A stretch of DNA of 34,900 bases from Acidobacteria bacterium RIFCSPLOWO2_12_FULL_65_11 (GTDB lineage Bacteria; Acidobacteriota; Vicinamibacteria; Vicinamibacterales; CAVVIG01), in NCBI GenBank assembly GCA_001767495.1, contig MELA01000015.1, positions 1 to 34,900 of the forward strand. The letters are read 5' to 3'. How positions within the stretch are numbered: position 1 is the stretch's first letter; every line of letters starts with the position of its first letter. A model generated the notes under the pieces. That model was not told where the DNA came from. It ran no database searches and saw only the letters and a program-made list of their open reading frames with translations. This document shows, piece after piece, positions 9,494 to 24,644 of this stretch. The translations under genes were made by a program, and so were the position numbers.

Positions 9494-11203
9494 ATGACGG
9501 ACCGAAGCATATCCGCCCTGCGGACGCTGCGGCCAGAGTTCGATCGGAAACTGTTCTGGTTCCGCGACGACCTGCACCAGCCGTATCCCATCTCACCGAT
9601 GGGGATGACCACGATCCAGAAGCACCATGCCTGGGGCTACCACGTCGCGGCCAATCAGACGCAGCTGCCGCCCAGTAAGGGCGCCTTCGTGAAGATCTAC
9701 AAGGGTCGGGTGTACTTGGGCTTCACCCTGATCGACGACCCCAAAGAGATCGGGCGCCGGGCCAAGACGTTCGGCAAGCTGATCGAATACTGCAAGGACC
9801 ACTGGGACACCTACTACCACAAGTACATCAACGAGATCGTCCGAAACATTCGGGCCCTGCAAATCGACAAGGCCGACCGCCTGTCGACGCCCGCGCTGCT
9901 CGCCCACCTCAGGAAAAGCGAGCAGATGAATCAGCGGGCCTGGGAGATTCACTTCATCCTGATGTACCCGGCCGACGGGCTCTACTTGGAGTTTGAAGGC
10001 TACTGCAAGAGTCTGGGTCTTGAGGAAAAGGACTTCGTCACCCTGCTCAAGGGCTTCGAAGGCATGCCGGCGAAAACCGACGAGGAGTTGTGGAACCTCG
10101 CCCTGATGGCGAAGGCGAGCGGCCTCAAAGAAATCTTCGTCAAGACGCCGGCCGGATCGCTGCTCAAGACACTGTCGGGCAAGCCCAAGGCCAAGGCCTG
10201 GCTCACGCGGTTCACCAAGTTCCTCGACGTCTACGGGCACCGGATCAGCGCTGCCCACCTCGACGTGCTCTTCCCCACCTGGAAGGAAGACCCGACCCCG
10301 GTCCTCGACACCATCAAGAGCTACTTCCAGCGCATGGACGATGGCTGGAGCCTCGAGGAGGCGCGCGCCGAGGTCGCCCGTCGGCGGCAGGCGGCCATCC
10401 AGGCGTTTGAAGCGAAGCTGACGCACGAGAAGAAGTTCGACAAGAAGGCGCTGGCAGAGTTCCGCCGGTTCCTCAAGGCGGCCCAGAAGATCTATGCCTA
10501 CCAGGAGGACCACGGCTTCTACATCGACCAGGGCTGCACGGCTGCGCTCCACGATTCGGTGATGGCCTGCGGTCGACGTCTGCAGAAGTTCGGCCTGCTC
10601 GAGAAAGTCGAGGATGTCTTCTATCTGACCTACAGTGAGCTGATCGAGATTCTCAGCGACCTGTCGCGCGACGAGCAGATCGGCGCCCACCACTACCAGG
10701 AACTGGTGCCGGTCCTGGTGCAGGAGCGCCGTAACGACCGGGAGCGGGCGATCGAAGCGTCCGACGCGCCGCTGACCGTCGGGGCCGTGCCCGAGACGAT
10801 GACCGACCCGATCGCCATCAAGGTGTTCGGCATCATCGATGAGGTGCTCCACCCGAAGGGCGAAAAGGAAGTGGTCGAGCGGCTCGAAGGGTTCCCCGGC
10901 GCGCCGGGCCTGGTCGAGGGCCCGGCCCGCGTGATCATGAACTTCGAGGATTTCCCCACCCTGCAGGCGGGCGAGATCCTGGTCTGCCCCTACACGGGCA
11001 CCGCGTGGACGCCGCTGTTTCTCAAGATTTCGGGCGTGGTCACCGACACCGGCGGCATGCTGACGCACGCGGCGATCGCGGCGCGCGAATATGGGATTGC
11101 CGCCGTCGTCGGCACCTGGAAAGCCACCAACTCGATCAGAAACGGTGACATCATCCGCGTGGACGGGGATAACGGCATCGTGGAAGTAGTGAAAAGAGCC
11201 TGA
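9494..11203 (+). CDS. PEP-synthase-type swivelling-histidine protein lacking the ATP-grasp domain
   Basis: 569 residues. ATG 9494 is chosen because GGAGG lies five bases upstream; ATG 9482 is in frame but has no such site. The C-terminal 95 residues are a PEP-utilising 'mobile' domain: FPGAPGLVEGPARVI, ILVCPYTGTAWTPLF, then GGMLTHAAIAARE with the phospho-accepting His at residue 525. The helical N-terminal two thirds resemble the middle region of PEP synthase and rifampicin phosphotransferase relatives. No ATP-grasp fold is seen here or in a neighbour. Phenylphosphate synthase is known to split the ATP-binding and His parts between subunits, so a partner encoded elsewhere is possible. The substrate is unknown. 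A repeat-built membrane protein follows 80 bases downstream. Confidence 0.75.
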   Translation: MTDRSISALRTLRPEFDRKLFWFRDDLHQPYPISPMGMTTIQKHHAWGYHVAANQTQLPPSKGAFVKIYKGRVYLGFTLIDDPKEIGRRAKTFGKLIEYCKDHWDTYYHKYINEIVRNIRALQIDKADRLSTPALLAHLRKSEQMNQRAWEIHFILMYPADGLYLEFEGYCKSLGLEEKDFVTLLKGFEGMPAKTDEELWNLALMAKASGLKEIFVKTPAGSLLKTLSGKPKAKAWLTRFTKFLDVYGHRISAAHLDVLFPTWKEDPTPVLDTIKSYFQRMDDGWSLEEARAEVARRRQAAIQAFEAKLTHEKKFDKKALAEFRRFLKAAQKIYAYQEDHGFYIDQGCTAALHDSVMACGRRLQKFGLLEKVEDVFYLTYSELIEILSDLSRDEQIGAHHYQELVPVLVQERRNDRERAIEASDAPLTVGAVPETMTDPIAIKVFGIIDEVLHPKGEKEVVERLEGFPGAPGLVEGPARVIMNFEDFPTLQAGEILVCPYTGTAWTPLFLKISGVVTDTGGMLTHAAIAAREYGIAAVVGTWKATNSIRNGDIIRVDGDNGIVEVVKRA

Positions 11204-11212
11204 GGATCTGTC

Positions 11213-11264
11213 GGCTTAGGGCTTAAGACTCAGGGCCTCGTTCCTGAGCCATGAGCCTTAAGCC
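11213..11264. repeat. Word-repeat hairpin between two plus-strand genes
   Basis: Two 22-base arms (11213-11234 and 11243-11264) pair at 18 of 22 positions around an 8-base loop. The arms are built of recurring short words (ggcttaag, ctcagg). It begins nine bases after the PEP-type stop and ends nine bases before the Shine-Dalgarno of the next gene, so it could terminate or attenuate transcription. There is no T-run. Confidence 0.7.
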
Positions 11265-11283
11265 GCTATTAAAGGAGGCAGCA

Positions 11284-12330
11284 GTGGCACAACCTGTTCT
11301 CGGTGTGGTCGCCTCGGCGATCGTCATGGTGATCGCGCTCGTCTTCATTGCGTTGTTTGAATTGCCCACGTTTCTCGGATGGGTCTCCTTCTACAACCTG
11401 TGCCTGATCCCGTTCCAGGTGATGGCCGTCGTCCTCTGGGGAGGAGCGAACCCTTCATTTGTGGCAAAACTGTCCCAGCCCGTGAAGGGCCTCGTGATGC
11501 TGCTGGTCACGCTCGTTGTCGCAGCCGTCGCTGCGCCGCTGGCGTTCGGCTCTGTTGGTGAAGGCGTCAGCCCCCCTGACATGATTCCTACCCACTTCGT
11601 GATCCTGGCAGTCCCCACCACGTTCTACCTGTCGATCGTTTGGGGAGGGTGGCCGTTCACGAACCTGTTCAAGAACTCGATCGTGGCCGGCCTCGCGCTG
11701 CTCGTCGCCTCCTACGCGATTACCTACGTGATCTTTCAGCTGTTCTTCGACTACAGCTTCCTGCAGGGCGCGCCTATCTATCTGCAGTCGGCGCCGCAGG
11801 GCATGTTCAACGGCGTGACGGCACTCGTCTTCTACGTCACGGCGCTTGCGGTGATGTTCATCGTGCTCTGTTTTGATTTGTGGCCTCTCACGACCGTACC
11901 GGGAGTGATGAAGCAACCGGTGCTGGGACTTGTCTGGACCGTAGTGATCCTCGTCGGGGCGGCCATCGCACTCCAGATCGGTGTGGTGTCGATGGGCATC
12001 GATCCGATGATCTTCTTTACGCGTGCGACGGTCCCGTTCATCTTCGGCAGCATCGTGGTGTTGAACATGCTGCAAAATTCGCTCTTCGCGAAGATGACGC
12101 AGCCACTCAAGGGCGTTGTGAATGTGATTGCGGTTGTGGTCATTGGCGTTGCGCTCTCGAACTTGTACGGCGCTCTCGCGCCCATCGTCACCGGCCCACT
12201 CGCATCCGGACCGCCGGGATACGTGTACGAGGTCTGGCTGGCCAACTCGCTCCTCAGCGTCACGTTCCCGTTCCTCATCTTCTACGCGGTGTACCTGAAC
12301 TACTGGCCGCTCATCAAGCCGAACCACTAG
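11284..12330 (+). CDS. Unrecognised polytopic membrane protein built of internal repeats
   Basis: 348 residues. The GTG at 11284 is preferred because AAAGGAGG ends five bases before it; an ATG at 11251 lies inside the hairpin arm. I do not recognise a named family. About ten helices are visible. A unit of helix, 'W-x-x-W-P' loop, Q-P-V/L-x-G, helix recurs: QPVLGVVASAIVM (about residue 3), SQPVKGLVMLLVTLVV (64), WPFTNLFKNSIVAGLAL (123), KQPVLGLVWTVVILVG (211), TQPLKGVVNVIAVVV (274), and a final half unit NYWPLIKPNH. Spacing is about 61-79 residues. No charged catalytic or haem motif stands out. It lies between the PEP-type gene and two DUF6644-like genes, and a transport or sensing role can only be guessed. 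Confidence 0.8.
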   Translation: MAQPVLGVVASAIVMVIALVFIALFELPTFLGWVSFYNLCLIPFQVMAVVLWGGANPSFVAKLSQPVKGLVMLLVTLVVAAVAAPLAFGSVGEGVSPPDMIPTHFVILAVPTTFYLSIVWGGWPFTNLFKNSIVAGLALLVASYAITYVIFQLFFDYSFLQGAPIYLQSAPQGMFNGVTALVFYVTALAVMFIVLCFDLWPLTTVPGVMKQPVLGLVWTVVILVGAAIALQIGVVSMGIDPMIFFTRATVPFIFGSIVVLNMLQNSLFAKMTQPLKGVVNVIAVVVIGVALSNLYGALAPIVTGPLASGPPGYVYEVWLANSLLSVTFPFLIFYAVYLNYWPLIKPNH

Positions 12331-12354: not shown

Positions 12355-12837
12355 ATGGAACTGCTGGCCGCCCTCGAGAACAGCGCCTTTGGCGCCTGGG
12401 TACGTGAATCGCCATCGCCGTGGGCGTACCCAGGCGTTCTGTTCCTGCATACTGTTGGCCTGTCCTTCCTGGTTGGTCTGAGCGTGGCCATCGACCTGCG
12501 GCTCCTTGGCGCCGCCCGGCGCCTGCCGGTCCCGCCGCTCGCGCGCTTCTACCCGGTGATGTGGATGGGCTTTGGGCTCAACGCGCTCTCCGGCGTGGCA
12601 TTGTTCGCCGCCAACGCGACCACACGCGCCACCAATCCGGCCTTCTACTTCAAGATGGGATTTGTCACTCTCGCGATGATCGCTCTCCTGATGATTCGGC
12701 GATCGGTCGTCCGCCAATCCACACTGGGGGCTGGTCTGGGAACCCTCTCTGACAGGGTCCTCGCCGTCGCCTCGCTTGTCTGCTGGACGGGGGTGATTAC
12801 CTCAGGCCGGCTGATGGCCTATTTCGGTCAGGGCTAG
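12355..12837 (+). CDS. DUF6644-like four-helix membrane protein (paralogue 1)
   Basis: 160 residues with four predicted helices. The first carries a histidine (His32) in FLHTVGLSFLVGL, followed by AIDLRLLGA, the 'D-L-R-L-L-G' signature shared by all four paralogues in this window. The third has NPAFYFKMGF, and the last ends CWTGVITSGRLMAYFG. It starts 24 bases after the repeat-built membrane protein and ends two bases before paralogue 2, so it belongs to the same transcription unit. Function is unknown. The membrane-embedded His could ligate haem or bind a quinone, but that is only suggested by position and by the neighbouring cytochromes. Confidence 0.8.
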   Translation: MELLAALENSAFGAWVRESPSPWAYPGVLFLHTVGLSFLVGLSVAIDLRLLGAARRLPVPPLARFYPVMWMGFGLNALSGVALFAANATTRATNPAFYFKMGFVTLAMIALLMIRRSVVRQSTLGAGLGTLSDRVLAVASLVCWTGVITSGRLMAYFGQG

Positions 12838-12839
12838 CA

Positions 12840-13337
12840 GTGCTCACCGCGTTTGCCTACTGGATTCGCGCGACCCCGCTCGGATGGGCGGCCGCCGGCG
12901 GCGTGGTGTGGCTCGGGCCCGCCTGCCTGACGCTGCATTTCATCGGCCTCGTCTTGCTGGTCGGCTGTGTGTTTGCCTTCGATCTACGGCTGTTGGGCGT
13001 GGCGAAGGGATTGCCGGTTGCGCCGCTCGGAAGCCTGATGCCCTGGGCGGTGCTCGGCTTCCTCATCAATCTGACCACCGGGCTCACGCTCCTGGCGGGT
13101 AATCCCTTTCAGTACATCGACAACCCCGCCTTCTGGCTGAAGATGCTCTTCGTCGTGCTCGCCGGCGTCAACGTCATCATCTATTACAGTACCGGCCTTG
13201 CCCGCCGCGCCGCGGCCGTCGCCTCCGGCCAGGATGCGCCGTTCTCCGCCAAGACATTCGCCGCAATGTCGCTCTTCCTTTGGATCGGCGTCATCTACTG
13301 GGGTCGGATGCTGCTCTTTATAGGAAACTTCTTCTAA
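12840..13337 (+). CDS. DUF6644-like four-helix membrane protein (paralogue 2)
   Basis: 165 residues from a GTG start at 12840, two bases after the TAG of paralogue 1. The architecture is the same: His33 in LHFIGLVLLVG, AFDLRLLGVAK, NPAFWLKMLFVVLAGVN, and the terminal helix LFLWIGVIYWGRMLLFIG. It is clearly homologous to its upstream neighbour, so a tandem duplication is likely. The two may form a heterodimer. A promoter candidate and a cytochrome gene follow, so this is probably the last gene of its transcription unit. Confidence 0.8.
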   Translation: MLTAFAYWIRATPLGWAAAGGVVWLGPACLTLHFIGLVLLVGCVFAFDLRLLGVAKGLPVAPLGSLMPWAVLGFLINLTTGLTLLAGNPFQYIDNPAFWLKMLFVVLAGVNVIIYYSTGLARRAAAVASGQDAPFSAKTFAAMSLFLWIGVIYWGRMLLFIGNFF

Positions 13338-13361
13338 TCCTAATTCGATCTTTGCCATGAC

Positions 13362-13390
13362 TTGAACCTGGGTTTGAGCCGTGGTATACA
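13362..13390 (+). promoter_or_regulatory. Sigma-70-like promoter candidate for the cytochrome gene
   Basis: TTGAAC (13362-13367) and TATACA (13385-13390) are separated by exactly 17 bases, five and five matches of six to consensus. Transcription would begin near 13397, about 55 bases before the cytochrome start. It lies downstream of paralogue 2, which supports a separate transcription unit. Confidence 0.55.
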
Positions 13391-13452
13391 ACTACGCGCT
13401 CAAGCGACCTTCTTCGCGAAGGTCTCCAGACACTCCATACAGAGGAGCATTC

Positions 13453-14079
13453 ATGCGAGTCCGTAACGTCATCTTGCCGTCGCTTGTCTTTGCCGTACTC
13501 ACCGCCCTTGTCCTTGTTCAAGTCACGACGGCGCAGGCACCCGCCCGGGGCGCTGCGGCCCAGGCTCCTGCTCGCGGTGCGGCCCAGGCACCCGCGCGCG
13601 GCGCCGCCGCCGCGGCGGCGTGTGTGAGAGGGGTGTGCGGCACGCTTGCCCAGATCATGCGCGGCATCACGTTCCCCAACTCGAACATTGCCTTTGACGT
13701 GCAGGACAACAATCCCGGCACCAAGAAGCCGGACCCGAGCGGACCGTATATCGGTCAGTATCAAGGCTGGGAAGGCGTCGAGAATGCCGGCATCGCCCTG
13801 GCCGAGAGCGCAAACCTCATCCTGCTTCCCGGCCGCAAGTGCTCGAACGGCCAAGACGTCCCGCTGGCGCAGGCTGACTTTGTGCAGTTCACCCAGGCGC
13901 TCCGAACGACGGGGATGGCTATTTACAATGCCGCGAGAGCTAAGAATCAAAACGCCATCATCGATCTGAGTGACAGGCTCACCGAGACGTGCGCGAACTG
14001 CCACGACAAGTATCGCCCTGACAGCCGCCTCTCTGGCCCGAAGGTGGGACCCGAGAAGCGCTGCATGCCTGGGGTTTGA
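13453..14079 (+). CDS. Secreted monohaem cytochrome c'-like protein with Ala/Pro repeat linker
   Basis: 208 residues from ATG 13453, with GAGGAG six bases upstream. A signal peptide (about 1-27) is followed by a low-complexity linker of three QAPARGAA units, then CVRGVCG, a closely spaced cysteine pair outside any CXXCH. The helical domain shows LAQIMRGITFPNSNIAFDV, GVENAGIALAESANLILL and a terminal haem site CANCHDKY. The layout matches the two other cytochrome c'-like proteins in the window. It probably shuttles electrons in the periplasm close to the membrane partners encoded on either side. The Cys pair may form a disulphide. A palindromic repeat follows the stop. Confidence 0.85.
   Translation: MRVRNVILPSLVFAVLTALVLVQVTTAQAPARGAAAQAPARGAAQAPARGAAAAAACVRGVCGTLAQIMRGITFPNSNIAFDVQDNNPGTKKPDPSGPYIGQYQGWEGVENAGIALAESANLILLPGRKCSNGQDVPLAQADFVQFTQALRTTGMAIYNAARAKNQNAIIDLSDRLTETCANCHDKYRPDSRLSGPKVGPEKRCMPGV
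13534..13608 (+). repeat. In-frame tandem repeat encoding QAPARGAA units
   Basis: Three imperfect 24-27-base units (13534, 13561, 13585) encode QAPARGAA(A). Synonymous differences between units, such as gcacccgcc versus gctcctgct, suggest the peptide rather than the DNA has been conserved. Confidence 0.8.
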
Positions 14080-14106
14080 GAAGCGCAGCCCGCTGTACTT
14101 GTATGT

Positions 14107-14132
14107 TGTAGTGTCCGGCTTGAGCCGGACCT
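14107..14132 (+). repeat. Dispersed palindromic repeat, copy A
   Basis: TAGTGTCCGGCTTGAGCCGG begins at 14109 and continues to ACC. The stem GTCCGGC/GCCGGAC has a 4-base loop. It lies 28 bases after the cytochrome stop and 20 before the next start. Related copies are at 17731, 21586 and 24669-24723. Confidence 0.85.
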
Positions 14133-14151
14133 GTGAATCGAGGGCTTTCAT

Positions 14152-14676
14152 TTGATTCCGTGGCCGCTGCCGTTTCGGGGTGTGTTCGAGTGGATGGCCA
14201 CACTGCCCTTTAGCAAAGATCTCGAAGCGTCAGCCTACGGCTTCCCCCTCCTGCTGACGGCACATGTCCTCAGCATGTGTCTGTTCCTCGGCCTCATCTT
14301 CATGATGGATCTGCGTCTCATCGGGATCGCGCACCGTCAGACGCCGGTCTCGGTGATTCAGCAGCGTCTATTCCCCTGGCAAATGCTCGGCGTGACCGTG
14401 ATGAACATCTCGGGGTTCGTGCTGTTCTATTCCCAGCCCGTGTACTATTGGGGCAAGCTGTTCTTCTGGGTCAAGATGCTGATCATGGTGATGGCCGGCG
14501 CCAACGCGCTTATCTTCCACCTCACCACGTACCGCACAGTTGCCTCGTGGGACAGCGACCCCAATCCACCGCTCGGCGCCAAGTTGGCCGGCGTCCTCTC
14601 GATCGTTCTATGGATCGGCGTGCTGTCATTCGGGCGGCTGATCGCCTACGATTGGTGGACCTTCCAGACGTTTTGA
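14152..14676 (+). CDS. DUF6644-like four-helix membrane protein (paralogue 3)
   Basis: 174 residues from a TTG start at 14152, with GAGGG seven bases upstream; an internal ATG at about residue 15 is a weaker alternative. It has the same signatures as paralogues 1 and 2: His39 in LLLTAHVLSMCLFLGL, MMDLRLIGIAH, YYWGKLFFWVKMLIMVMAGAN, and the terminal helix LWIGVLSFGRLIAYDWW. The N-terminal segment before helix 1 is longer and reads PFRGVFEWMATLPFSKDLEA. It follows the monohaem cytochrome and precedes paralogue 4 by 16 bases. Confidence 0.8.
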   Translation: MIPWPLPFRGVFEWMATLPFSKDLEASAYGFPLLLTAHVLSMCLFLGLIFMMDLRLIGIAHRQTPVSVIQQRLFPWQMLGVTVMNISGFVLFYSQPVYYWGKLFFWVKMLIMVMAGANALIFHLTTYRTVASWDSDPNPPLGAKLAGVLSIVLWIGVLSFGRLIAYDWWTFQTF

Positions 14677-14692
14677 TATTGAGGAGCGCCCC

Positions 14693-15148
14693 ATGCTCGC
14701 ACCGTTCTTCATGTGGATGGAGGGACTCGCAGTCTACCAGTCCTCCATCTATCTCGGTCCTGGAGTCAATCTGGCGCATCTCGTCGCGATGGTGACCTTC
14801 ATGGGCGCCCTCTTACTTGTGGATTTGCGGTGTCTGGGCTTCGGTCTGACCGAACAGTCAGTCACGCAATTGGCACGTAGCGCCCATCGGTGGTTGATCG
14901 GCGGTCTCGCGGGGCTGGTCGTCACAGGGATTCCGGCCGTCATGGCTGTGGCTACACAGGAGTACGAGAACAACACCTTCTGGTGGAAGATGTATATCCT
15001 CGCAACGGCGATCCTCTGGACGTTTACCGTTCGGCGCAAGGTTGTGCAGTCACACGACCCCGGGTTGGGCGGCAAGGCCGTTGCGATTGTGTCGATCCTC
15101 CTTTGGATGGCCGTCGCAGCCGGTGGCCGGCTGATCATGTACCTCTAG
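14693..15148 (+). CDS. DUF6644-like four-helix membrane protein (paralogue 4)
   Basis: 151 residues from ATG 14693, with GAGGAG six bases upstream. His29 in NLAHLVAMVTFMGALLLV is followed by DLRCLGFGL. NTFWWKMYILATAILWTF corresponds to helix 3, and LLWMAVAAGGRLIMYL is the C-terminal helix. It is the most divergent of the four: the 'N-P-A-F' before helix 3 has become N-N-T-F. Paralogues 3 and 4 form a second tandem pair like 1 and 2, with the cytochrome gene between the pairs. Confidence 0.78.
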   Translation: MLAPFFMWMEGLAVYQSSIYLGPGVNLAHLVAMVTFMGALLLVDLRCLGFGLTEQSVTQLARSAHRWLIGGLAGLVVTGIPAVMAVATQEYENNTFWWKMYILATAILWTFTVRRKVVQSHDPGLGGKAVAIVSILLWMAVAAGGRLIMYL

Positions 15149-15183: not shown

Positions 15184-15999
15184 ATGCTCCGTTGCCCTCT
15201 GCTGCTCTTGGCTCTGTCATTGATGGGGACCGGCGTCTACGCACAGACGCGAACGGCCCCACCACCCCAGCCCAAGATAGGACAAGCTGGTAAGGATGTC
15301 GTCTGGGTCCCGACTCCAGACGTCCTCGTAGAGAAGATGCTGGACCTCGCGATGGTGACGGCCCAGGATTACTTGATCGATCTCGGTTCGGGCGACGGCC
15401 GTACCGTGATCGCCGCGGCTAAGCGGGGCACCAGGGCGCACGGCATCGAATACAACCGCGACATGGTCGCGCTGTCACGACAAGCAGCCGCCACCCAGCG
15501 CCTCAGCGACAGGGCAACGTTCGCGGAAGCCGACTTATTCCGAAGTGATTTCTCAGACGCCACAGTGCTGACGCTGTTTCTGCTGCCGGAGATCAACATG
15601 CAGCTTCGGCCGAAAATTCTCGCCCTCAAGCCCGGTACGCGCGTGGTATCGAATACCTTCACGATGCAGGACTGGGAGCCTGACGAGTCGGTGACGGTCG
15701 CCGATTGCCAAGTGTACTGCACGGCTCACTTCTGGATTGTGCCCGCCCAGGTCGAGGGCACGTGGCGGTTTGCCGGGGGCGAGTTCTCGCTGACGCAGCA
15801 GTTTCAGCGTATAAGAGGCGCGCTGCTGTCTGGCGCCAACAGCGCGCCAATCACCAACGCGAGGCTGCGAGGCGACCAGATTGCTTTCACCGCCGCGGGC
15901 GTCCGATACAGCGGCCGTGTGGATGGCGACACCATGCAGGGCACCCTCAGCTCACAGGAAAGCCTCGGCAGCTGGCGTGCGACCCGCACCAGCCGTTAG
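15184..15999 (+). CDS. SAM-methyltransferase-like protein with a signal peptide
   Basis: 271 residues from ATG 15184; the frame is open further upstream but that part only shadows paralogue 4. The N-terminus MLRCPLLLLALSLMGTGVYA is a good signal peptide. A class I methyltransferase core follows: VWVPTPDVLVEKMLDLA, LIDLGSGDGRTVIAAAKR (motif I, glycine-rich), HGIEYNRDMVALS (acidic residue after strand 2), and FAEADLF. A C-terminal beta-rich part of about 100 residues has no counterpart in ordinary methyltransferases. SAM is cytoplasmic, so export would be paradoxical; the helix may instead be a membrane anchor, or the domain may bind another nucleotide-like ligand. The substrate is unknown. Confidence 0.75.
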   Translation: MLRCPLLLLALSLMGTGVYAQTRTAPPPQPKIGQAGKDVVWVPTPDVLVEKMLDLAMVTAQDYLIDLGSGDGRTVIAAAKRGTRAHGIEYNRDMVALSRQAAATQRLSDRATFAEADLFRSDFSDATVLTLFLLPEINMQLRPKILALKPGTRVVSNTFTMQDWEPDESVTVADCQVYCTAHFWIVPAQVEGTWRFAGGEFSLTQQFQRIRGALLSGANSAPITNARLRGDQIAFTAAGVRYSGRVDGDTMQGTLSSQESLGSWRATRTSR

Positions 16000-16187: not shown

Positions 16188-16586
16188 ATGAGAATGAGAA
16201 CGACCCTACCCGCTGTGATGGCTGCCCTGTTTCTCACAACAGGGACGGCTTGGGCTCATCATTCCCTGATTTCGCAGTACGCCAAAGAGAAGACAGTCTC
16301 GCTCAGAGGAACCGTCACGAGGGTGGTGTGGAAAAATCCACACGGATGGATTTACATCGACGTGCCAGGCGAGAGCGGTCAACGCGAGCAATGGATGATC
16401 GAAACCGGCGCTCCGCTCCGCATGCAAAGGCGTGGCCTCAAAGCGACTGATTTCAAGGTTGGCGCCGAAGTCATCATCGGCGGCTGGGCCGCCAGGGATG
16501 GCTCGAAGACGGTGGCGGGCTGGATTGTGACCTTTGTCGATCGGGAAACCAAGGGCCAAGAGGCGTCCTTTGCGCTCGGCCGGTGA
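16188..16586 (+). CDS. DUF6152 family secreted protein
   Basis: 132 residues. ATG 16188 is chosen over the TTG at 16185 because GGGAGG is five bases upstream. A signal peptide ends TAWAHH. The mature part starts HHSLISQYAKEKTVSLRG, followed by TRVVWKNPHGWIYIDVPG and VGAEVIIGGWAARDGS, the core DUF6152 pattern of a small beta barrel with 'W-x-N-P-H'. The His-His pair at the mature N-terminus could bind metal. The biological role of the family is not established. It is followed within seven bases by a cytochrome gene. The 188 bases upstream hold no other gene that I can see. Confidence 0.85.
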   Translation: MRMRTTLPAVMAALFLTTGTAWAHHSLISQYAKEKTVSLRGTVTRVVWKNPHGWIYIDVPGESGQREQWMIETGAPLRMQRRGLKATDFKVGAEVIIGGWAARDGSKTVAGWIVTFVDRETKGQEASFALGR

Positions 16587-16592: not shown

Positions 16593-17060
16593 ATGAAGAC
16601 CTGGATCTGCTTGATTGGCCTCGCGGCATCGCTCGGTGCCGCCGTCGCGACCAGCGGCTGGACCGCCGTCGCGCAAACCCGTGACCCACGGACGGTGAAG
16701 GAATTGATGAAGGAGGACATTGCCCCCGCCGCCGATGTCATCTTCAACTACGTGGCGATCGACGTCACGCTGGCTGGAGTTGTAGAAAATGCGCCGAAGA
16801 CCGATGCCGAGTGGGCCGAGGTTCGCAAGAGCGCGGTCGCCCTGGCTGACTCGGGCGCGCAGCTCAAGGCCCAGGGCCGCGGGCGTGAGTACGACAAGCT
16901 GGCGCAGGAAATGACCGACGCGGCGCTCCTGGCACGGCGCGCTGCCGACACGAGAAACGTGAGCAGGCTCCGCGCGGCCGAGCAGGCGATGAACGCCGCG
17001 TGCGAAAATTGCCATCAGAAGTACTGGCCCCGAAGCGACCAGCAGCCGAACGGGCGCTGA
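16593..17060 (+). CDS. Secreted cytochrome c'-like monohaem protein
   Basis: 155 residues from ATG 16593, seven bases after the DUF6152 stop. A signal peptide covers about residues 1-28 (ending AVAQT). The domain shows VKELMKEDIAPAADVIFNYV, DAEWAEVRKSAVALADSGAQ and a C-terminal CENCHQKYWPRS with one haem site. It is the third cytochrome of this type in the window and the closest to actA (55 bases). An electron-carrier role for the ACIII complex is plausible but not demonstrated; ACIII normally reduces a cytochrome c domain of an oxidase or ActE. Confidence 0.85.
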   Translation: MKTWICLIGLAASLGAAVATSGWTAVAQTRDPRTVKELMKEDIAPAADVIFNYVAIDVTLAGVVENAPKTDAEWAEVRKSAVALADSGAQLKAQGRGREYDKLAQEMTDAALLARRAADTRNVSRLRAAEQAMNAACENCHQKYWPRSDQQPNGR

Positions 17061-17114: not shown

Positions 17115-17726
17115 TTGCGAAGACCCCCCGCTACTGTCGTGCTTGCGACAGCGCTCGCCGTCAGCCTGGTGACCTTGGCCGCCGCGTGGCGCCTCCCCGG
17201 TAGCAACCAGGGTTACGAGCCGGTTCAACCAATCGCCTTCTCACACAAGCTCCACGCGGGCGAGATGCAGCTCTCGTGTTTGTACTGTCACGCGGGAGCA
17301 GAAACGAGCCGCTACGCCGGCATTCCTGCGCTCAACGTGTGTATGAACTGCCACGCCAAGGTGACGACATCGTTTGCCGCGCAGCAGCAGGCGCAACCCA
17401 TGGAATCGCCTGAGCTGCGCAAACTGTACGACGCGTTGGCTCTCGACGCCGCCTTGATGCCAGTCGCCGGCCGGTCGCCGAAACCGATCGCCTGGCAGAA
17501 GGTCCATCGGGTGCCTGACTTCGTGTACTTCGACCATCGCGCGCACATCACGGCGGCGGTTCAATGCCGGCAATGCCACGGTTCGATCGAGACGATGGAC
17601 CGCGTTCGGCAGGTTCAGTCGTTGGCGATGGGCTGGTGCATCAACTGCCACCGCGACGTCAATCGGACCGGCGTGGCGGGCAAGCCCGTGCACGCGTCGC
17701 TCGATTGTGTGACATGTCACTACTAA
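17115..17726 (+). CDS. actA: ActA, pentahaem cytochrome subunit of Alternative Complex III
   Basis: 203 residues from a TTG start at 17115. One N-terminal hydrophobic helix (about 5-24) anchors or exports it. Five CXXCH haem sites are visible: CLYCH, CMNCH, CRQCH, CINCH and CVTCH, the last two residues before the stop being His-Tyr. FSHKLHAGEMQLSCLYCHAG is the usual opening of ActA and related cytochrome c7-like proteins. It passes electrons from the FeS clusters of ActB towards the periplasmic acceptor. It is the first gene of the act operon. A palindromic repeat follows its stop by four bases. Confidence 0.93.
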   Translation: MRRPPATVVLATALAVSLVTLAAAWRLPGSNQGYEPVQPIAFSHKLHAGEMQLSCLYCHAGAETSRYAGIPALNVCMNCHAKVTTSFAAQQQAQPMESPELRKLYDALALDAALMPVAGRSPKPIAWQKVHRVPDFVYFDHRAHITAAVQCRQCHGSIETMDRVRQVQSLAMGWCINCHRDVNRTGVAGKPVHASLDCVTCHY

Positions 17727-17730
17727 ATCA

Positions 17731-17756
17731 AGGTCCGCCTGAAGGCGGACACTACA
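17731..17756 (-). repeat. Dispersed palindromic repeat, copy B
   Basis: AGGTCCGCCTGAAGGCGGAC followed by ACTACA. Read on the minus strand it has the same TAGTGTCCG...CGGACC form as copies A and C. The stem is GTCCGCC/GGCGGAC, two compensating changes from the GTCCGGC/GCCGGAC stem of copy A. It separates actA from actB. Confidence 0.85.
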
Positions 17757-17782
17757 TCGGCCTGCGATGTCGGTGATTGTGA

Positions 17783-20700
17783 ATGTCAGAGAACCCCAAG
17801 CGCTACTGGATGAGCCCGGTAAGTGATGTCGAGCGTGACTCGCGCGATGGCGCTACTGTGCCGATCGCCAACGGGGATCCGGACTTCGTCACGACGCGCC
17901 GCAGCTTCTTGAAAGCGGCAGGCTTTACCTTTGCGGGCGCGGTGGCTGCAAGCTGCAGCCGCGCGCCGGCGACGAGCGCCATCCCGTACGCGCAGCAGCC
18001 GGAGGGAGTCGTTCCAGGCAGGCCCCTCCTCTACGCATCAACGTGTGGCGCGTGCGAGGCACGGTGCGGCCTGCTCGTGACGACCCGCGATGGGCGGCCG
18101 ATCAAGATCGAGGGCAATCCGGACCATCCCCTCTCTGGCGGGGCGACCTGCGCGGTGGGACAGGCGTCGCTTCTTGGGTTGTACGACAGTCTGCGACTCA
18201 AGGGCCCGCTGCGACGCGGGCAGCAGAGCACCTGGCCCGATGTCGACATGGAGATCGCCGCGACGCTCGAGCGGCTGCGCCAGGAAGGCGGCGCCGTACG
18301 GTTGCTGTCACCCACCATCACCAGCCCCACAACGGCCGCCTTGATCGCCGATTTTCTCGGCGGCTTCAAGAACGCGCAGCACATCACTTACGACCCGATC
18401 TCGGCCTCAGCCGTGCTCGAGGCGCATGCGCTGACGCATGGGAGACGCCTGCTGCCCCAGTTCCGCTTCGACCAGGCAGACGTGATCGTCAGTTTCGACG
18501 CTGATTTTCTGGGCACGTGGATCTCCCCGGTCCAGTTCACCCGCGGCTACACGAGTCGGCGGCGGATCGACGGGGGCGCCCGACAGGCTCAGGGCGCGCC
18601 CACGATGTCCTACCACGTGCAGATCGAGTCGCGACTGTCGCTGACTGGATCGAATGCCGATCGGCGGCTGCGTGTGGCGCCAGGCGAACTCGGGCATCTC
18701 GCCACACACCTGGCGGTGCGTGTCGCCGAACGCGCAGGAATACCCTTCGCGGCTGACGGACTCGCTGCCTCTTCCATGGAGCCGGCCATTGAGGCGATCG
18801 CCGACCGGCTCTGGACCGCGCGAGCCCGCGGTCTCGTGATCTCATCGAGCCAGGATGTCAGTGTCCAGCTGCTCTGCAACTTCATGAACCGTACGATCGG
18901 CGCGTACGGCACCACACTCGACGTGGAGCGTCCGTCCTATCAGCGCCTGGGCGACGACAGAGATCTCGCTGGCCTGCGGGCCGAGCTTTCGCGTGGTGAG
19001 GTTGCAGCGCTCTTTGTGGCGGGCGTCAACCCCGTCTACGACCTACCGGACGCAACCGCGCTCGCTGGCGACCTCCGACGCGTGCCGCTCCTCGTCAGCA
19101 CCGCTGAACGGCCCGACGAAACGGCCAGCCTCGCGACCTTCGTATGCCCGGCGCATCATTACCTGGAGAGCTGGGACGATACCGAAGCCGTGTCGGGCGT
19201 CGTGAGCCTGACCCAGCCTGTCATCGCGCCATTGGGCGACACCCGCGCGCTCATCGAGAGCCTGTCTGCCTGGACGACGGGGACCGCACAGCCGGCGCTT
19301 GATCTCATTCGGGGCCATTGGGAGCGCGCCATTCATCCTCGGTCAGCCGGGACGTCAGACCCGGCCGGCGTGGCCGAGCCGTTCCAGACATTCTGGGACC
19401 GAACGCTCGAGCGAGGCGTGGCCGACATTGCGCCCCGGGACGAGCGTCCGGCCTCGGCGCCTTCATCAAGGGCGCCGGCCGTGCGGCCGTTTGACCAGAG
19501 TGCGGTGCTGGCAATCCTTCGTCCTGACGCACCGCCTTCCGGCAGCTTCGCCCTGGTGCTGTATCCGAACATCGGCATGCTCGACGGACGGCATGGCCAC
19601 AACGCGTGGCTTCACGAGCTGCCCGACCCGGTCACCAAGGTCACGTGGGACAACTATGCGAGTTTCTCGCCCACGGCCGCCCGACAGCTGGGCGTAGAGG
19701 ACGGAGATGTCGTGCGGATTGGCGCAGACGGCGCTCAGCCGATCGAGCTGCCCGCATTCGTGCAGCCCGGACAGCACGATGCCACGGTGGCGATTGCGCT
19801 GGGATACGGGCGTGCGGGAACCGACCGCTTCGCCAGCGTCGGCCCGCCATGGTTCGAGGCGCGCCGGCAGACCGGCCTGGTCGGCGTCAACGCTGCGGCG
19901 CTTGTCACCACGACCGAGGCCGGCCGCCGGTATTCTGGCCGGACAGTGACCGTGGCCACAGTCGGACGCACGCGCCAGCTCGCCTCGACGCAGATCCACC
20001 ATTCGCTCGCCGTTCAAACCACATTCGCCCCCTCGATCAGCCAAGAGCCGAGGCCCATCGTGCAGGAAGTCACGCTGGGAGAGCTGAGCGGGACGTCGGC
20101 CACGGGCGGCGCTGCCGCCACCAGCGCGGCACCTCCTGAAAGCGGTCTGCGCGAAGAGAGTCTATGGCCCGCCGATCATCCCTATCCCGAGCACCGGTGG
20201 GGCATGGCGGTTGACCTCAACGCCTGCACCGGCTGTTCGGCCTGCGTGATCGCGTGTCAGGCCGAGAACAACATCCCGGTCGTCGGTCAGGACGAAGTGC
20301 GCCGCAAGCGCGAGATGCACTGGATCCGGATCGATCGGTACTACTCGGGTACCGACGCGGAGCCGGAGGTCGTGCATCAGCCGATGTTGTGTCAGCACTG
20401 CGGGCATGCCCCCTGCGAAACGGTGTGTCCGGTCCTCGCCACCACGCACAGTGACGAGGGGCTGAATCAGCAGGTGTACAACCGGTGCGTCGGAACCAGA
20501 TACTGCGCGAATAACTGTCCGTACAAGGTGCGGCGCTTCAACTGGTTCGACTATCCGCACGAGGATCGCCTTCAGAACCTCGTCTTCAACCCGAATGTGA
20601 CCGTCCGCTCGCGCGGTGTGATGGAGAAATGCACATTCTGCGTGCAACGAATCGAAGAGGTGAAGATTGAGGCGCGACGACTCGGACAGCCTGTAGCAGA

Positions 20701-20911
20701 CGGCGCCGTCAAGACCGCGTGCCAGCAGGTCTGCCCCGCCGAGGCCATTGTGTTTGGCGACCTTCGCGATCCGAACAGTCGAGTGGCCACCCTCGCCCGG
20801 AGCCGTCGCGCGTTCCGTGTGCTGGAGGATCTGGGTACGGATCCTGGCGTGCATTACCTGAAGATCGTTCGGCATGATCCCGCCGCCGCCGATGAGAGAC
20901 GCCGTGGCTGA
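17783..20911 (+). CDS. actB: ActB, molybdopterin-like plus FeS fusion subunit of Alternative Complex III
   Basis: 1042 residues. A Tat signal with RRSFLK at residues 39-44 is followed by AASCSRAP. Residues about 80-730 are the B1 domain, related to molybdopterin enzymes. About 800-1000 is the B2 domain with four clusters: [11 protein letters not shown] (from residue 815), [26 protein letters not shown] and CTFCVQR...CQQVCP. In characterised ACIII the B1 domain holds no cofactor. Here B1 has CGACEARC and then, 27 residues on, the Cys of [10 protein letters not shown]: a complete CX2CX3CX27C like the extra [4Fe-4S] site of true molybdo-enzymes. The role is electron transfer from quinol to ActA. 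The end overlaps actC by 38 bases if ATG 20874 is used. Confidence 0.93.
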
Positions 20912-22370
20912 CGCGGCCATCGCCGGTGGCCTGCCGGTCGCTTCTCTTATTGCTGGCAACAAGTCGCCGGCCGACGTCACGCGCGACGTGTGCCGCGCGC
21001 TCGATGCGAAACCGTCTGGCCTGTGGTGGCTGGGGCTCGGGCTGTCAGGTTCCGCCCTCCTTCTGGGCGTGGTCGCCGTCAGCTATCAGATGGCCACGGG
21101 CATCGGCACCTGGGGCCTGAACAGCACGGTCGGATGGGCGTTCGACATCACGAACTTCGTGTTCTGGATCGGGATCGGCCACGCCGGGACCCTGATCTCA
21201 GCGATTCTGTTTCTGCTCCGGCAGCGCTGGCGGACCTCGGTCAACCGGGCCGCTGAGGCGATGACGCTGTTTGCCGTGATGTGCGCCGGGCTCTTTCCCC
21301 TCATCCACATGGGCCGGCCCTGGCTCGCCTTCTGGATGCTGCCCTACCCCAATACGCGCGGATCGCTCTGGATCAATTTCCGTTCGCCCCTGATCTGGGA
21401 CTTCTTTGCCATCAGCACCTACTTCACCATCTCCGCCGTCTTCTGGTACATCGGCTTGCTGCCCGATCTCGCCACCATCCGCGATCGTATGCGCGCCTCA
21501 CACGAGACAGACAGAAACGCGCGCGGTACCGACGCGCACGACAACACCACGTACGACAACACCGCGTACGACAACACCGCGTACGTAGTGTCCGGCTTCA
21601 GCCGGACCCGTATGCGGATCTTCGACTGGTTAAGTCTCGGCTGGAACGGCTCGTACCGTACCTGGCACCGCTACGAGGTCGTCTATCTGTTGCTCGCCGC
21701 CCTGGCCACGCCACTCGTCCTGTCGGTGCACAGCATCGTGAGCATGGACTTCGCGACGGCGCTGGTTCCGGGCTGGCACACGACGATTTTTCCTCCGTAC
21801 TTCGTCGCTGGCGCGATCTTCTCGGGAATGGCCATGGTGCTCACGCTGATGCTCGTCGCCCGCAAGACGATGAGGATCGAGGACTACATCACGGCCCGGC
21901 ACGTTGACGCGATGTGCCGCCTGGTCATTCTCACGAGCGGGATCGTCGGATTGGCGTACGCGACCGAGCTGTTCACGGCGTTCTATTCGGGCAATCAGTA
22001 CGAACAGTCCGCGTTCGTCAACCGGGTGGTCGGTCCGTTGGCCTGGGGCTACTGGGTGATGGTGGGCTGCAACGTCCTCGTGCCCCAGTTGTTCTGGTTC
22101 GCCGGGGTGCGCCGCTCGTTTCTGATGGTGTTCATCATCTCGCTGTTCATCAACGTCGGTATGTGGTTCGAGCGCTTCATCATCATCGTCAGCTCGCTCG
22201 AGCGCGGTTTTCTTCCGTCGAGTTGGGCGTCGTACAGCCCGACGTCGATTGAAATTGCCACCCTCATCGGCTCCTTCGGTCTGTTCTTCACCTGTTTTCT
22301 GCTGTTCTGCCGGTTCGTTCCTGTGATTGCGATGGCGGAAATTAAGGCCGTGCTGGGGAAGGCCCGATGA
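20874..22370 (+). CDS. actC: ActC, NrfD-like quinol-binding membrane subunit of Alternative Complex III
   Basis: 498 residues from ATG 20874; ATG 20892 is also possible, both within the actB end. Ten or so helices are present. Family landmarks are [96 protein letters not shown] and a C-terminal [16 protein letters not shown]. ActC binds quinol and contributes the proposed proton path. Odd feature: after [12 protein letters not shown] the loop carries an insertion (about residues 222-246) made of three DNTxY repeats and VVSGFSRTR, encoded by a 15-base tandem repeat plus copy C of the palindromic repeat. The reading frame stays open and the conserved sequence resumes afterwards. Confidence 0.93.
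21540..21584 (+). repeat. 15-base tandem repeat inside actC
   Basis: Three consecutive units of gacaacaccgcgtac (21540, 21555, 21570; the first has one change) encode [10 protein letters not shown] and DNTAY. The unit length is a multiple of three, so copy-number change keeps the frame. It abuts palindromic repeat copy C. Confidence 0.9.
21586..21610 (+). repeat. Dispersed palindromic repeat, copy C, within actC coding sequence
   Basis: TAGTGTCCGGCTTCAGCCGG followed by ACCCG. The stem is GTCCGGC/GCCGGAC with loop TTCA. Read in the actC frame it contributes VVSGFSRT. Same orientation as copy A. Confidence 0.9.
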
Positions 22371-22906
22371 GCCGCCGGGTCATCATCGGCGTGTTCGAGC
22401 GAGAAGAGGACCTTCTCCACGCGACAGCCGCCGCGCGAGACGAAGGACTGGACATTGTCGATGTCTTCAGCCCGTACGTCGTCCACGGTCTGGATCGTGC
22501 CATGGGTCTGCGGCCATCTCGATTGCCGTGGGTGTGCTTCCTGCTTGGACTGCTGGGGGCAACGGGGATCCTGCTATTTCAGTTCTGGACGACCTCTGTC
22601 GGTTGGCCGATTAACGTGGGTGGCAAGCCCTGGAATTCGCTCCCCGCGTTTATTCCGGCCACCTTCGAGATGATGGTGCTCCTAGGCGGCGTCGGCACGG
22701 TGGTCGCGTTCATCTGGTCGGCGGGACTCAGGCCCTGGCATAACCGAAGCCGGCCCGCACTGGCTGACCTGGGCGTCACCGACGATCGCTTCGCCCTCGC
22801 GATCGGCGAAACGGGCGTCGCGTTTGACCACGCCCGCGTCAGAGCGCTGCTCTCGCGATTCCGCCCCGCCTCGATCGAGGACCGGGCGGAAGAGGAGGTG
22901 GCCTGA
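22367..22906 (+). CDS. actD: ActD, DUF3341 membrane subunit of Alternative Complex III
   Basis: 179 residues; ATG 22367 overlaps the actC stop as ATGA. The N-terminal soluble part ([20 protein letters not shown], then [20 protein letters not shown]) is the DUF3341 ferredoxin-like fold. Two helices follow (about 46-69 and 100-122), with [20 protein letters not shown] between them, a well-conserved ActD segment. It is a structural subunit that packs against ActC/ActF and has no cofactor. The family usually runs 170-200 residues, so it is full length. Confidence 0.92.
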
Positions 22907-23469
22907 TGGCACGCCGGACGCTCAACATCGGCTTGGGAGTGGCGCTGGTCGTGTCGATCGCCCTCAACGTCGCGGCCTGGTTGCCGAGAACGCGTCCGAC
23001 TTTCGAGTACGTGCCCAATATGGTGCGGACGGCGAGATACAACACGTTCGAGGCCAATCCGAACTTCCCGGATGGGATGACGCTCAGAGCGCCCGTGCCT
23101 GGCACGATTTTCAGGGGATTCTCTCCGCCTCCGACTGGAAACGAGACCAATCCGTTCTCGGCCGACGATCGCGCCGCTGTCGAACGCGGCGCCACTGTCT
23201 TTACAAATTTTTGCCAACCGTGTCACGGGGCGACCGGGCAGGGCGACGGGCTGGTCGTGATGCGAGGATTTCCGCCGCCACCGCCCATCTACCGAGGCCA
23301 GACTCAGCGGATGCGTGACGCGCAGATGTTCGGCCAACTGACCAACGGGCAAAACGCCATGCCCCCCTATGCGCTGCAGCTTTCGCGCGAGGATCGGTGG
23401 AAGGCAATCCTGTATGTTCGCACGCTGCGGCTGCCGGCGCCGCCGCCAGAAGCGGGAAGCGCCCAATGA
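22906..23469 (+). CDS. actE: ActE, monohaem cytochrome c subunit of Alternative Complex III
   Basis: 187 residues from ATG 22906, whose first base overlaps the actD stop (TGATG); GAGGAGG lies upstream. The N-terminal helix (residues 7-25) acts as signal or anchor. FEYVPNMVRTARYNTFEANP is the usual ActE opening. The haem site CQPCHG begins at residue 103, followed by TGQGDGLV; NAMPPYALQLSREDRW supplies the probable Met ligand. ActE is the periplasmic electron exit of the complex. Confidence 0.93.
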   Translation: MARRTLNIGLGVALVVSIALNVAAWLPRTRPTFEYVPNMVRTARYNTFEANPNFPDGMTLRAPVPGTIFRGFSPPPTGNETNPFSADDRAAVERGATVFTNFCQPCHGATGQGDGLVVMRGFPPPPPIYRGQTQRMRDAQMFGQLTNGQNAMPPYALQLSREDRWKAILYVRTLRLPAPPPEAGSAQ

Positions 23470-24644
23470 GCCTTCAGGTCCCGCGCGTCGAGCTCGGAGC
23501 GTTCGAGCGCCAGACGCTCCGCCGCCTCGCCGCGACGGGCGCCATCGTCGCAGCGATGGGGGCCGTCGTTGCGCCTGATCGCATGTGGGCGAGTGGGCTG
23601 CTGGTTGCCTACGTTGCACTCGGGTTGGGACTCTCGGGTCTGTGCTTCGTCGCCATCCATTACACGACCGGCGCGAGCTGGAGCGTCGCCGTTCGACGTG
23701 TCCCCGAAGCGCTGGCTGGAACGCTTCCCCTCTCCGTCGTCCTCCTCGCCGCCGTCTTTCTCGCCCGGCCGCAGCTCTACGAGTGGACGAGCGGCAGCCT
23801 GGCCTCGACAGTGACGAGCGCGTTGGCCTTCAAGCGCTTCTGGTTGTCCTGGCCATTTTTCCTCGCGCGGGCCGCCGCGTACTGCGTCATCTGGATCGGG
23901 TTCGCATCCGCGATCCGTTGGCTCTCGCGACGACAAGATGGCGATGGCGATCCCCGCTGGACCAGATTGAACAGCCGCCTTTCGGCGGCGTTCCTCGTCG
24001 TCTTCGCCGTGACGTTCACGCTGGCCTGCTTTGACTGGGTCATGTCGCTCGAGCCCGCGTGGTACAGCACGATTTTCGCCGTCTACAACTTCGCGGGCAT
24101 GTTCCAGAGCGGACTCGCCGCCCTTATCGTCGTGGCTCTGTGGTTGGAACGAACTGGGCCGCTACGGAACGTGTTGAACGAGGAGCACCTGCACGATCTC
24201 GGGAAGCTGCTGTTCGCGTTCAGCATCTTCTGGATGTACATCTGGTTCAGCCAGTACATGCTGATCTGGTACACGAACATTCCAGAAGAAACCTCCTATT
24301 TCATCCGGCGGATACAGGGTCTGTGGTTCGTGTTGTTTCTCGCCAACGTCATCCTCAACTGGCTCGTCCCCTTCGCCGTCTTGCTGCGACGTGATGCGAA
24401 GCGCGATCGCAAGACACTCGCGCGCGTCGCCGCGATTGTCCTGCTCGGCCGCTGGCTCGACGTGTACCTCATGATCTTTCCGGCCATCGTGGGAGACACA
24501 CCGCGGATCGGCCTGTGGGAAATCGGTGTGACGTCGGCTGCGATCGGCGGCTTCGGCCTCGTGCTCGCGTGGATTCTGAGGGCGACGCCGGTCGTGCCGC
24601 TCGCCGATCCCCAGCTCGCCGACAGCCTGCAGTACGAGCACTAA
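23466..24644 (+). CDS. actF: ActF, second NrfD-like membrane subunit of Alternative Complex III
   Basis: 392 residues. ATG 23466 is chosen because it gives an ATGA overlap with actE; the frame extends upstream without support. About ten helices are visible. Landmarks are LSGLCFVAIHYTTGASWSVA, FDWVMSLEPAWYSTIFAVYN, FSIFWMYIWFSQYMLIWYTN and IPEETSYFIRRIQG. ActF is a shortened ActC/NrfD relative without the quinol site, thought to carry a proton path. The composite inverted repeat immediately downstream marks the end of the operon. Confidence 0.92.
   Translation: MSLQVPRVELGAFERQTLRRLAATGAIVAAMGAVVAPDRMWASGLLVAYVALGLGLSGLCFVAIHYTTGASWSVAVRRVPEALAGTLPLSVVLLAAVFLARPQLYEWTSGSLASTVTSALAFKRFWLSWPFFLARAAAYCVIWIGFASAIRWLSRRQDGDGDPRWTRLNSRLSAAFLVVFAVTFTLACFDWVMSLEPAWYSTIFAVYNFAGMFQSGLAALIVVALWLERTGPLRNVLNEEHLHDLGKLLFAFSIFWMYIWFSQYMLIWYTNIPEETSYFIRRIQGLWFVLFLANVILNWLVPFAVLLRRDAKRDRKTLARVAAIVLLGRWLDVYLMIFPAIVGDTPRIGLWEIGVTSAAIGGFGLVLAWILRATPVVPLADPQLADSLQYEH

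Follow-up and report, generated by a model that had tools for sequence, protein, structure and literature searches.

Paired DUF6644 membrane proteins and their exported partner DUF6152: a candidate metal- or electron-handling module resembling CopC/CopD

Several described systems resemble the proteins studied here. In YcnJ of B. subtilis, a conserved histidine of CopD and the histidine brace of CopC are both required for function (PMC13344008). HemJ is described as a b-type haem protein in a title cited by PMC11662147, and NrfD-like subunits consist of two four-helix bundles with a quinol site on the P side (PMC8076601). Among exported proteins, signal-strapped metalloproteins (DUF4198, DUF6702, and Ang-1/2) acquire a His at residue 1 when their signal peptide is cleaved, and some of them are linked to membrane permeases; DUF6152 is not named in the main text of that study (PMC12537917). 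The literature that we searched contained no paper naming DUF6644 or DUF6152.

We analyzed a 34,900-nucleotide stretch of DNA from Acidobacteria bacterium RIFCSPLOWO2_12_FULL_65_11 (hereafter the window). As claimed in a preliminary description of this DNA, it encodes four paralogous four-helix proteins (A to D) in two tandem pairs, with a monohaem cytochrome c between the pairs and another before actA (Table 1). All four proteins have a single His in TM1, a DLRxLG or DLRxIG motif, Lys-Met before helix 3, and a GR-hydrophobic motif, a degree of sharing that at the level of sequence motifs is far above chance. Searches with Pfam DUF6644 (PF20349) gave E values of 5e-20 for D and 1e-8 for C, both of which score above the gathering cut-off of 27 bits; A and B fall slightly below it, yet belong to the same tree grouping and possess all the motifs. 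The membrane His, previously claimed to be conserved, is indeed kept throughout the family (123/125 members), as are the Lys before TM3 (124/125) and the GR arginine at the end of TM4 (123/125). This His and this Lys are invariant or near-invariant in both upstream and downstream halves, at positions predicted to be close to the periplasmic side. C also carries a second conserved His (H123) where TM3 ends, as do 104/111 type II upstream subunits, which corrects the count of one membrane His in the preliminary description.

Table 1. Features of the DUF6644 gene run and its surroundings in the window
Feature	Coordinates	Strand	Basis
A: DUF6644-like 4-TM protein, 160 aa, type I upstream subunit	12355..12837	+	ORF; PF20349 26.9 bits; motifs; tree
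B: DUF6644/DUF2214-like 4-TM protein, 165 aa, type I downstream subunit	12840..13337	+	DUF2214 9e-6; DUF6644 23.7 bits; tree
Secreted monohaem cytochrome c, class II-like, with CANCH at the C terminus; a partner typically found with type II pairs	13453..14079	+	ORF, weak Pfam match
C: DUF6644 4-TM protein, 174 aa, type II upstream subunit, extra TM3 His123	14152..14676	+	PF20349 35.7 bits; tree
D: DUF6644 4-TM protein, 151 aa, type II downstream subunit	14693..15148	+	PF20349 72.6 bits; tree
Secreted methyltransferase-like protein, co-directional, outside the conserved cassette	15184..15999	+	Pfam/sequence
DUF6152: exported OB-fold protein, predicted mature N terminus His-His plus Asn-Pro-His, proposed metal-binding partner	16188..16586	+	Pfam 97 bits; pattern; model
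Second monohaem cytochrome c, class II-like, with CENCH; separated from DUF6152 by 6 nt, before actA	16593..17060	+	ORF, weak Pfam match
Alternative complex III (ACIII) genes actA-actF, context, linkage not conserved	17115..24644	+	Pfam matches

Tandem pairing is the rule in DUF6644. The 145 units that we identified comprise 135 adjacent pairs, three fused genes, and seven apparent singles, and in 134 of the 135 pairs the upstream (X) and downstream (Y) members come from matching clades, with a mirror-tree r of 0.89 for X versus Y in type II. Natural fusions of both halves also exist (eight genes, 343 aa). Clade matching and fusions back the earlier suggestion of paired heteromeric subunits. 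Alignment rows were in-frame read-through pairs; a plain MAFFT alignment of separate subunits with the fused protein misplaced the upstream subunits onto the wrong half. The window carries two distinct pair types, A/B (spaced by only 2 nt) being type I and C/D type II. A+B and C+D are probably two different obligately paired 8-TM units, each presumably forming a physical heterodimer. The possibility that A to D are four equivalent paralogues arising from local duplication was ruled out, as the tree shows A/B and C/D to be distinct pair types of long standing.

The same gene run includes two genes that the preliminary description lacked, encoding the methyltransferase-like protein and DUF6152. 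In DUF6152, the HH pair and the NPH histidine are found in 111/111 sequences each, and an Ala precedes HH in 105/109. As in CopC, the mature protein is therefore predicted from its sequence pattern to have an N-terminal His after signal cleavage. Its structural model is an OB-fold (pLDDT 88.7), which rules out a CopC-fold protein; there was no CopC match to DUF6152 in Pfam and no CopC chain among the top fold matches. DUF6644 and DUF6152 co-occur, with 46 genomes having both, 46 having neither, and four and three having only one of the two (Fisher p 9e-20, for genomes that are related and not independent). DUF6152 lies near every DUF6644 unit of the genome to which the window belongs and adjoins DUF6644 in the 8/8 proteobacterial plasmid loci examined, several of which show overlapping or abutting genes in the order DUF6152-DUF6644. 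The number of DUF6152 copies per genome reaches 44, far above that of DUF6644 pairs.

The two cytochromes in the window score 22.0 and 24.5 with Cytochrom_C_2 (PF01322), which are weak matches below the Pfam cut-off of 26.5; CxxCH is C-terminal, and a Met located early in the domain is conserved in 91/94. The cytochrome association proposed previously holds for type II, where a cytochrome is found within four genes of the pair in 24/37 and 55/70 loci and is the immediate upstream neighbor of 65 pairs, but not for type I (2/14 loci, one of which is this window). The idea that A to D all have the cytochrome as their partner was thereby ruled out, and DUF6152, found even where the cytochrome is absent, is the more universal partner. 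Because the membrane His is conserved and the cytochrome association is recurrent for type II, the preliminary description stands on the two points that could have overturned it. The synteny that it proposed to test recurs for cytochromes of type II loci but not for act genes, which are missing from most DUF6644 loci, and the position upstream of ACIII, presented as part of the arrangement, is among the matches listed peculiar to this genome. A block of CusA, YtkA, and class II cytochrome genes accompanies the pair in the window and in genome G016; YtkA linkage as a general rule was ruled out, since it is confined to these two genomes. A sigma-70-type promoter scan found no promoter, and terminator-like sites were no more numerous than in shuffles.

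The explanation that we tentatively favor is that DUF6152 and the DUF6644 pair form the core of a conserved metal- and/or electron-handling module, CopC/CopD-like, in which the metal would probably be copper. It builds on the computed pairing, clade matching, fusions, conservation, neighborhoods, signal-peptide pattern, and predicted folds, from which we infer the identity of the metal, the docking of DUF6152, and the direction of transfer. Profile alignment of DUF6644 with CopD by hhalign gave E values of 3e-4 (X) and 8e-3 (Y), against mostly 0.1-0.8 for controls, and brought the His residues of the two families into register, and likewise the Lys residues; in YebZ (CopD), the corresponding His154 and Lys230 are invariant in 24 sequences. 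The need for both histidine sites in YcnJ, and the CusA/YtkA/cytochrome block beside the pair in the window and in G016, also speak for this explanation. No DUF6644 passed the CopD (PF05425) cut-off of 32.1 bits, the best being C with 15.7 bits. In the mechanism that we propose, DUF6152 would be exported and cleaved by signal peptidase to yield a His-His N terminus, and its N-terminal His, together with the invariant Asn-Pro-His histidine, would hold a metal ion, most likely copper. Loaded DUF6152 would then dock on the DUF6644 pair from the periplasmic side, on which the invariant His, Lys, and Gly-Arg of each bundle are displayed, and pass the metal to the pair, or swap an electron with it, as CopC would with CopD. 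The class II cytochrome c of type II units might serve as a soluble electron carrier, and we therefore propose that the cycle includes reduction of the metal or an exchange of electrons with the respiratory chain. Several observations count against this explanation: the similarity to the CopD profile is modest, the partner has an OB-fold instead of the CopC fold, its copy number would be surprising if it were solely a copper chaperone, and the CusA/YtkA block is linked in no more than two genomes. In addition, class II cytochromes are frequent and a PQQ-type dehydrogenase occurs in the cassette, for which a redox role is at least an equal fit.

A close rival, which we regard as a serious if somewhat doubtful possibility, refines the preliminary description: the DUF6644 pair would be a small membrane cytochrome or quinone subunit. 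Each bundle might hold, on its periplasmic side, either a quinone or a haem b that is ligated by His as it is in HemJ, and electrons might flow among the quinone pool, the class II cytochrome c, and DUF6152 acting as a redox metalloprotein. The bis-His site between subunits envisaged earlier is not required, because every half is equipped with a complete His/Lys/Arg set, like the single four-helix bundle that bears it in HemJ and CopD. Besides the frequency of cytochromes at type II pairs, this reading is favored by the HemJ profile alignment (E 2e-3), in which His and Lys are superposed, and by a fused-pair model (pLDDT 88.3, pTM 0.85) that aligns with CydA of cytochrome bd and ActC of ACIII with Z scores of 17-22, and with PsrC with a Z score of 14.5, the next chain being at 9.4. 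However, high Z scores are easily reached by helical bundles and the best Foldseek E value was 1.5e-3, there is no NrfD or cytochrome b family sequence match in Pfam, and the type I and single-gene proteobacterial forms usually lack a cytochrome while DUF6152 is still present.

We consider it rather unlikely that DUF6152-DUF6644 is an undescribed two-component redox-metal module of several bacterial phyla, in which a split heterodimeric two-bundle relative of CopD/HemJ links the membrane electron pool with a His-brace OB-fold metalloprotein and a class II cytochrome c; if true, CopD too would be suggested to work by a mechanism involving haem or quinone. It is improbable that DUF6152, with a His-brace copper site, and the secreted S1/S4 proteins are periplasmic enzymes for organic substrates, to which the DUF6644 pair and cytochrome c return or supply electrons. 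In Acidobacteriota and Gemmatimonadota, most type II loci do place S1/S4 next to DUF6152 and the pair, frequently together with TonB-type receptors or with a PQQ dehydrogenase bearing a cytochrome domain, and the many DUF6152 copies would fit. However, searches of Pfam and NCBIfam gave no match to S1/S4, and no S1/S4 genes were detected next to the pairs of the window or at several loci of rhizobia and Azospirillum. Finally, that DUF6644 pairs are accessory subunits of ACIII is highly improbable and was ruled out as a general rule, since the pairs and actA are closely spaced on the same strand in this window but, among the matches listed (88 relatives with ActD), no other genome has DUF6644 within 20 kb of ActD, the nearest being ∼23 kb away in genome G014.

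The module places CopD, HemJ, DUF2214, and DUF6644 under one His/Lys four-helix signature, which bears on how CopD works, and DUF6152 is a candidate for a new class of metalloproteins that have an N-terminal His and are regularly accompanied by a membrane partner. The module is found in Acidobacteriota, Gemmatimonadota, and Proteobacteria and, because it occurs in cultured bacteria (Sinorhizobium, Azospirillum, and Novosphingobium), it is genetically testable.

Compared with known systems, the module is most like CopD (PF05425) and CopC, as in E. coli YobA-YebZ and B. subtilis YcnJ, with which it shares the superposed membrane His and Lys, eight TM arranged as 4+4, and an exported partner, encoded by an adjacent gene, whose mature form is predicted to begin with His. 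It differs in being encoded by two genes, each of which bears the His/Lys signature, whereas in the CopD alignment the signature was seen in the C-terminal half only, in its OB-fold partner and score below the CopD cut-off, and in its cytochrome c and S1/S4 neighbors. HemJ/UPF0093 (PF03653) likewise has four TM with superposable TM1 His and TM3 Lys, but the similarity is weak (no PF03653 match to A-D at E 0.1), DUF6644 is a paired heteromer, and no linked haem synthesis genes were seen. Replacement of HemJ in haem synthesis is not favored: HemJ, for which a family search of the same genome found none, is absent in nearly all relatives with or without DUF6644, and no haem gene was noticed near the pairs. 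NrfD/PsrC/ActC and CydA share the predicted two four-helix bundles with eight TM (Z 14.5-21.6 for the fused-pair model), but DUF6644 has no detectable sequence match to them (Pfam NrfD matched none of A-D, and hhalign against ActC gave 0.2), its halves are separate genes, and it has no iron-sulfur/molybdopterin partner. A PDB sequence search with the profiles yielded nothing beyond a chance match. Lastly, DUF6152 shares with the signal-strapped metalloproteins a His predicted at residue 1, and is set apart from them by its predicted OB-fold.

The preliminary description placed four related four-helix membrane protein genes (A to D) in the window, and all four DUF6644-like genes were confirmed at their positions (see the table). 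In a Pfam profile search, C and D score above the DUF6644 cut-off and A and B slightly below it, and B additionally matches DUF2214. The motifs described as shared were borne out, with 21 columns invariant across A-D, including the His, DLR and the next Gly, Lys-Met, and Gly-Arg. Every gene between 9482 and 28226 lies on the plus strand, with mostly short gaps (2 nt between A and B, 16 nt between C and D, and 6 nt between the DUF6152 and cytochrome genes). This stretch also encodes an odd combination, a methyltransferase fold after a signal peptide, in a product that matches an archaeal protein-lysine methyltransferase model at 7e-29, below cut-off.

Features of the window
Feature	Position	Strand	Remark
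CusA/CzcA-containing block	865-9306	-	includes HupE-like, CusB-like adaptor, beta-propeller, OprB-type porin
Class II cytochrome c	1547-2041	-	in this block
YtkA-like	2043-2486	-	
CusA/CzcA heavy-metal RND	2462-5572	-	above its cut-off
573-aa protein, then 359-aa many-TM protein	9482-12330	+	573 aa: PEP-utiliser mobile domain, remainder without assignment; 359 aa: no Pfam/NCBIfam match
A	12355-12837	+	type I, X
B	12840-13337	+	type I, Y
Class II-like monohaem cytochrome	13453-14079	+	profile match below cut-off
C	14152-14676	+	type II, X
D	14693-15148	+	type II, Y
Secreted protein	15184-15999	+	SAM-methyltransferase domain, extra C-terminal domain
DUF6152	16188-16586	+	
Second class II-like monohaem cytochrome	16593-17060	+	profile match below cut-off

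DUF6644 genes, present in 51/100 relatives, typically form tandem pairs of an upstream (X) and a downstream (Y) subunit. Using a simple codon-bias gene caller on 60 neighbourhoods of relatives and 80 of the genome collection, with few loci common to both sets, we counted 135 cases of two adjacent DUF6644 genes on one strand, along with 3 fusions. Another 7 genes seemed to stand alone, at least some of them through artefacts of gene calling or of contigs. The DUF6644 tree has separate upstream and downstream clades for each of three pair types; matching clades are joined in 134 of the 135 pairs and types are mixed in none. In the window, A/B is therefore a pair of type I and C/D one of type II, and a reading of A-D as four equivalent paralogues is ruled out. 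Distance matrices of type II X and Y subunits correlate at 0.89, to which their common species history contributes. Both halves are fused in one 343-aa protein in eight genes of one family; in a counterpart of the fused type III gene (L087, G063:C1:36451-42641), the halves are ∼5 kb of other DNA apart. Type III pairs also have DUF1552 (HXXSHH) nearby, along with a large dihaem protein, at L076:2364-6145 and L080:9349-13205; in L076 the dihaem protein matches planctomycete-type PSD/PSCyt families. The genome of the window has six DUF6644 matches, four in the window and one each on contigs C57 and C116, and reading the neighbourhoods revealed the missing partners: C116 carries a further A/B pair; the pair on C57 is C/D-like, with an upstream gene that lacks its middle. 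That X subunit (L008:9257-9526) has just 89 aa, with TM1 fused in frame to TM4, and is without TM2-TM3 and the invariant Lys, in an otherwise complete DUF6152-S1-X-Y cassette.

The more general partner of DUF6644 is DUF6152, also present in the window, rather than a cytochrome. Among 99 relatives, 46 have both families, 46 neither, and 4 and 3 just one of the two; some genomes hold up to 44 DUF6152 copies. On plasmids of Azospirillum, Sinorhizobium, Rhizobium, Microvirga, Cupriavidus, and Novosphingobium (the other genomes are nearly all metagenome assemblies), single or paired DUF6644 adjoins DUF6152 in 8/8 loci, often overlapping in the order DUF6152-DUF6644. Within four genes of type II pairs, DUF6152 occurs at 30/37 loci in relatives and 59/70 in the genome collection, and a class II cytochrome at 24/37 and 55/70. 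The proposed cytochrome association thus holds for type II but not for type I, where, at the same distance, a cytochrome is found at 2/14 loci and DUF6152 at 5/14; the collection scan, seeded with type II sequences, is uninformative on type I. Two secreted families, S1 and S4, which match neither Pfam nor NCBIfam models, lie within four genes of about 55-80% of type II pairs. The usual cassette in Acidobacteriota and Gemmatimonadota is cytochrome-X-Y-DUF6152-S4-S1, after which some loci have a 620-aa haem-binding protein, the size of the PQQ dehydrogenase identified in L046. S1 proteins have about 300 aa and S4 proteins about 370 aa; the two families are mutually homologous and recur beside DUF6152 at loci L039-L180. 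A link to alternative complex III did not survive: ActD is present in 88/100 relatives, but among the matches listed DUF6644 lies within 20 kb of it only in the genome of the window. A CusA-type efflux pump lies near a pair, together with a YtkA-like protein and one more class II cytochrome, in just two genomes, this one and G016; in G016 the same block, cytochrome through porin, directly adjoins a type II pair (L056, contig C44).

In the paired alignment, whose rows are fusions or in-frame read-through pairs, the invariant positions include His36 and Lys106 in the first half and His213 and Lys283 in the second, along with G86/G263 and G159-R160, among others. In 104/111 type II X subunits an extra His follows TM3, and an Asn is kept in 111/111. 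In both halves, Lys/Arg are two to three times more abundant in loops 1-2 and 3-4 than in the N terminus, loop 2-3, and C terminus, which by the positive-inside rule puts both termini outside and places the His (TM1 start), Lys (TM3 start), and Gly-Arg (TM4 end) near the predicted periplasmic face. An AlphaFold2 model of the fused protein has eight long helices (pLDDT 88.3, pTM 0.85); its best Foldseek E is 1.5e-3, and it aligns structurally with cytochrome bd CydA (Z about 19-22), ACIII ActC (about 17-18), and PsrC (14.5), the next chain being far lower (9.4). Since NrfD-like subunits are built of a pair of four-helix bundles and have their quinol site on the P side (PMC8076601), a two-bundle arrangement is likely common to the modelled pair and these proteins, which is no proof of function. 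HemJ, to which the family shows profile similarity (below), is a b-type haem protein according to the title of Skotnicova et al. 2018 (as cited in PMC11662147) and may use plastoquinone (PMC6878006). The earlier proposal that the pair holds haem b or quinone is nearly as probable as the metal-based reading favored below, and could be compatible with it if the DUF6152 metal were a redox centre.

Tentatively, and at somewhat below an even chance, we favor a CopC/CopD-like module of DUF6152 and the DUF6644 pair. DUF6152 would bind a metal, probably copper, and dock with it on the outer face of the heterodimer; in type II, cytochrome c would be the redox partner. In profile comparisons, X and Y match the CopD C-terminal half (E 3e-4 and 8e-3), the two halves of the pair align to one and the same region of CopD (7e-4 and 6e-3), and HemJ is matched at 2e-3, against mostly 0.1-0.8 (lowest 0.05) for unrelated control proteins. 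In each of the alignments displayed, the His and Lys of CopD or HemJ align with the invariant DUF6644 His and Lys. These E-values are moderate, and support, but do not prove, a single superfamily. When copper is limiting, Bacillus subtilis YcnJ requires both a conserved CopD His and the histidine brace of CopC (PMC13344008). His-His is invariant in 111 DUF6152 sequences, as is the His of Asn-Pro-His; Ala precedes His-His in 105/109, closing a signal-peptide-like stretch, so signal peptidase would make His residue 1 of the mature protein. This is the arrangement of histidine-brace copper proteins, e.g. CopC and LPMOs (PMC10952591); DUF6152 is absent from the main text of a survey of N-terminal-His metalloproteins (PMC12537917). 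The fold predicted for DUF6152 is not that of CopC but an OB barrel, modelled at pLDDT 88.7 and with structural matches of Z up to 10. OB-fold periplasmic carriers of metal or haem exist, such as CusF and CcmE.
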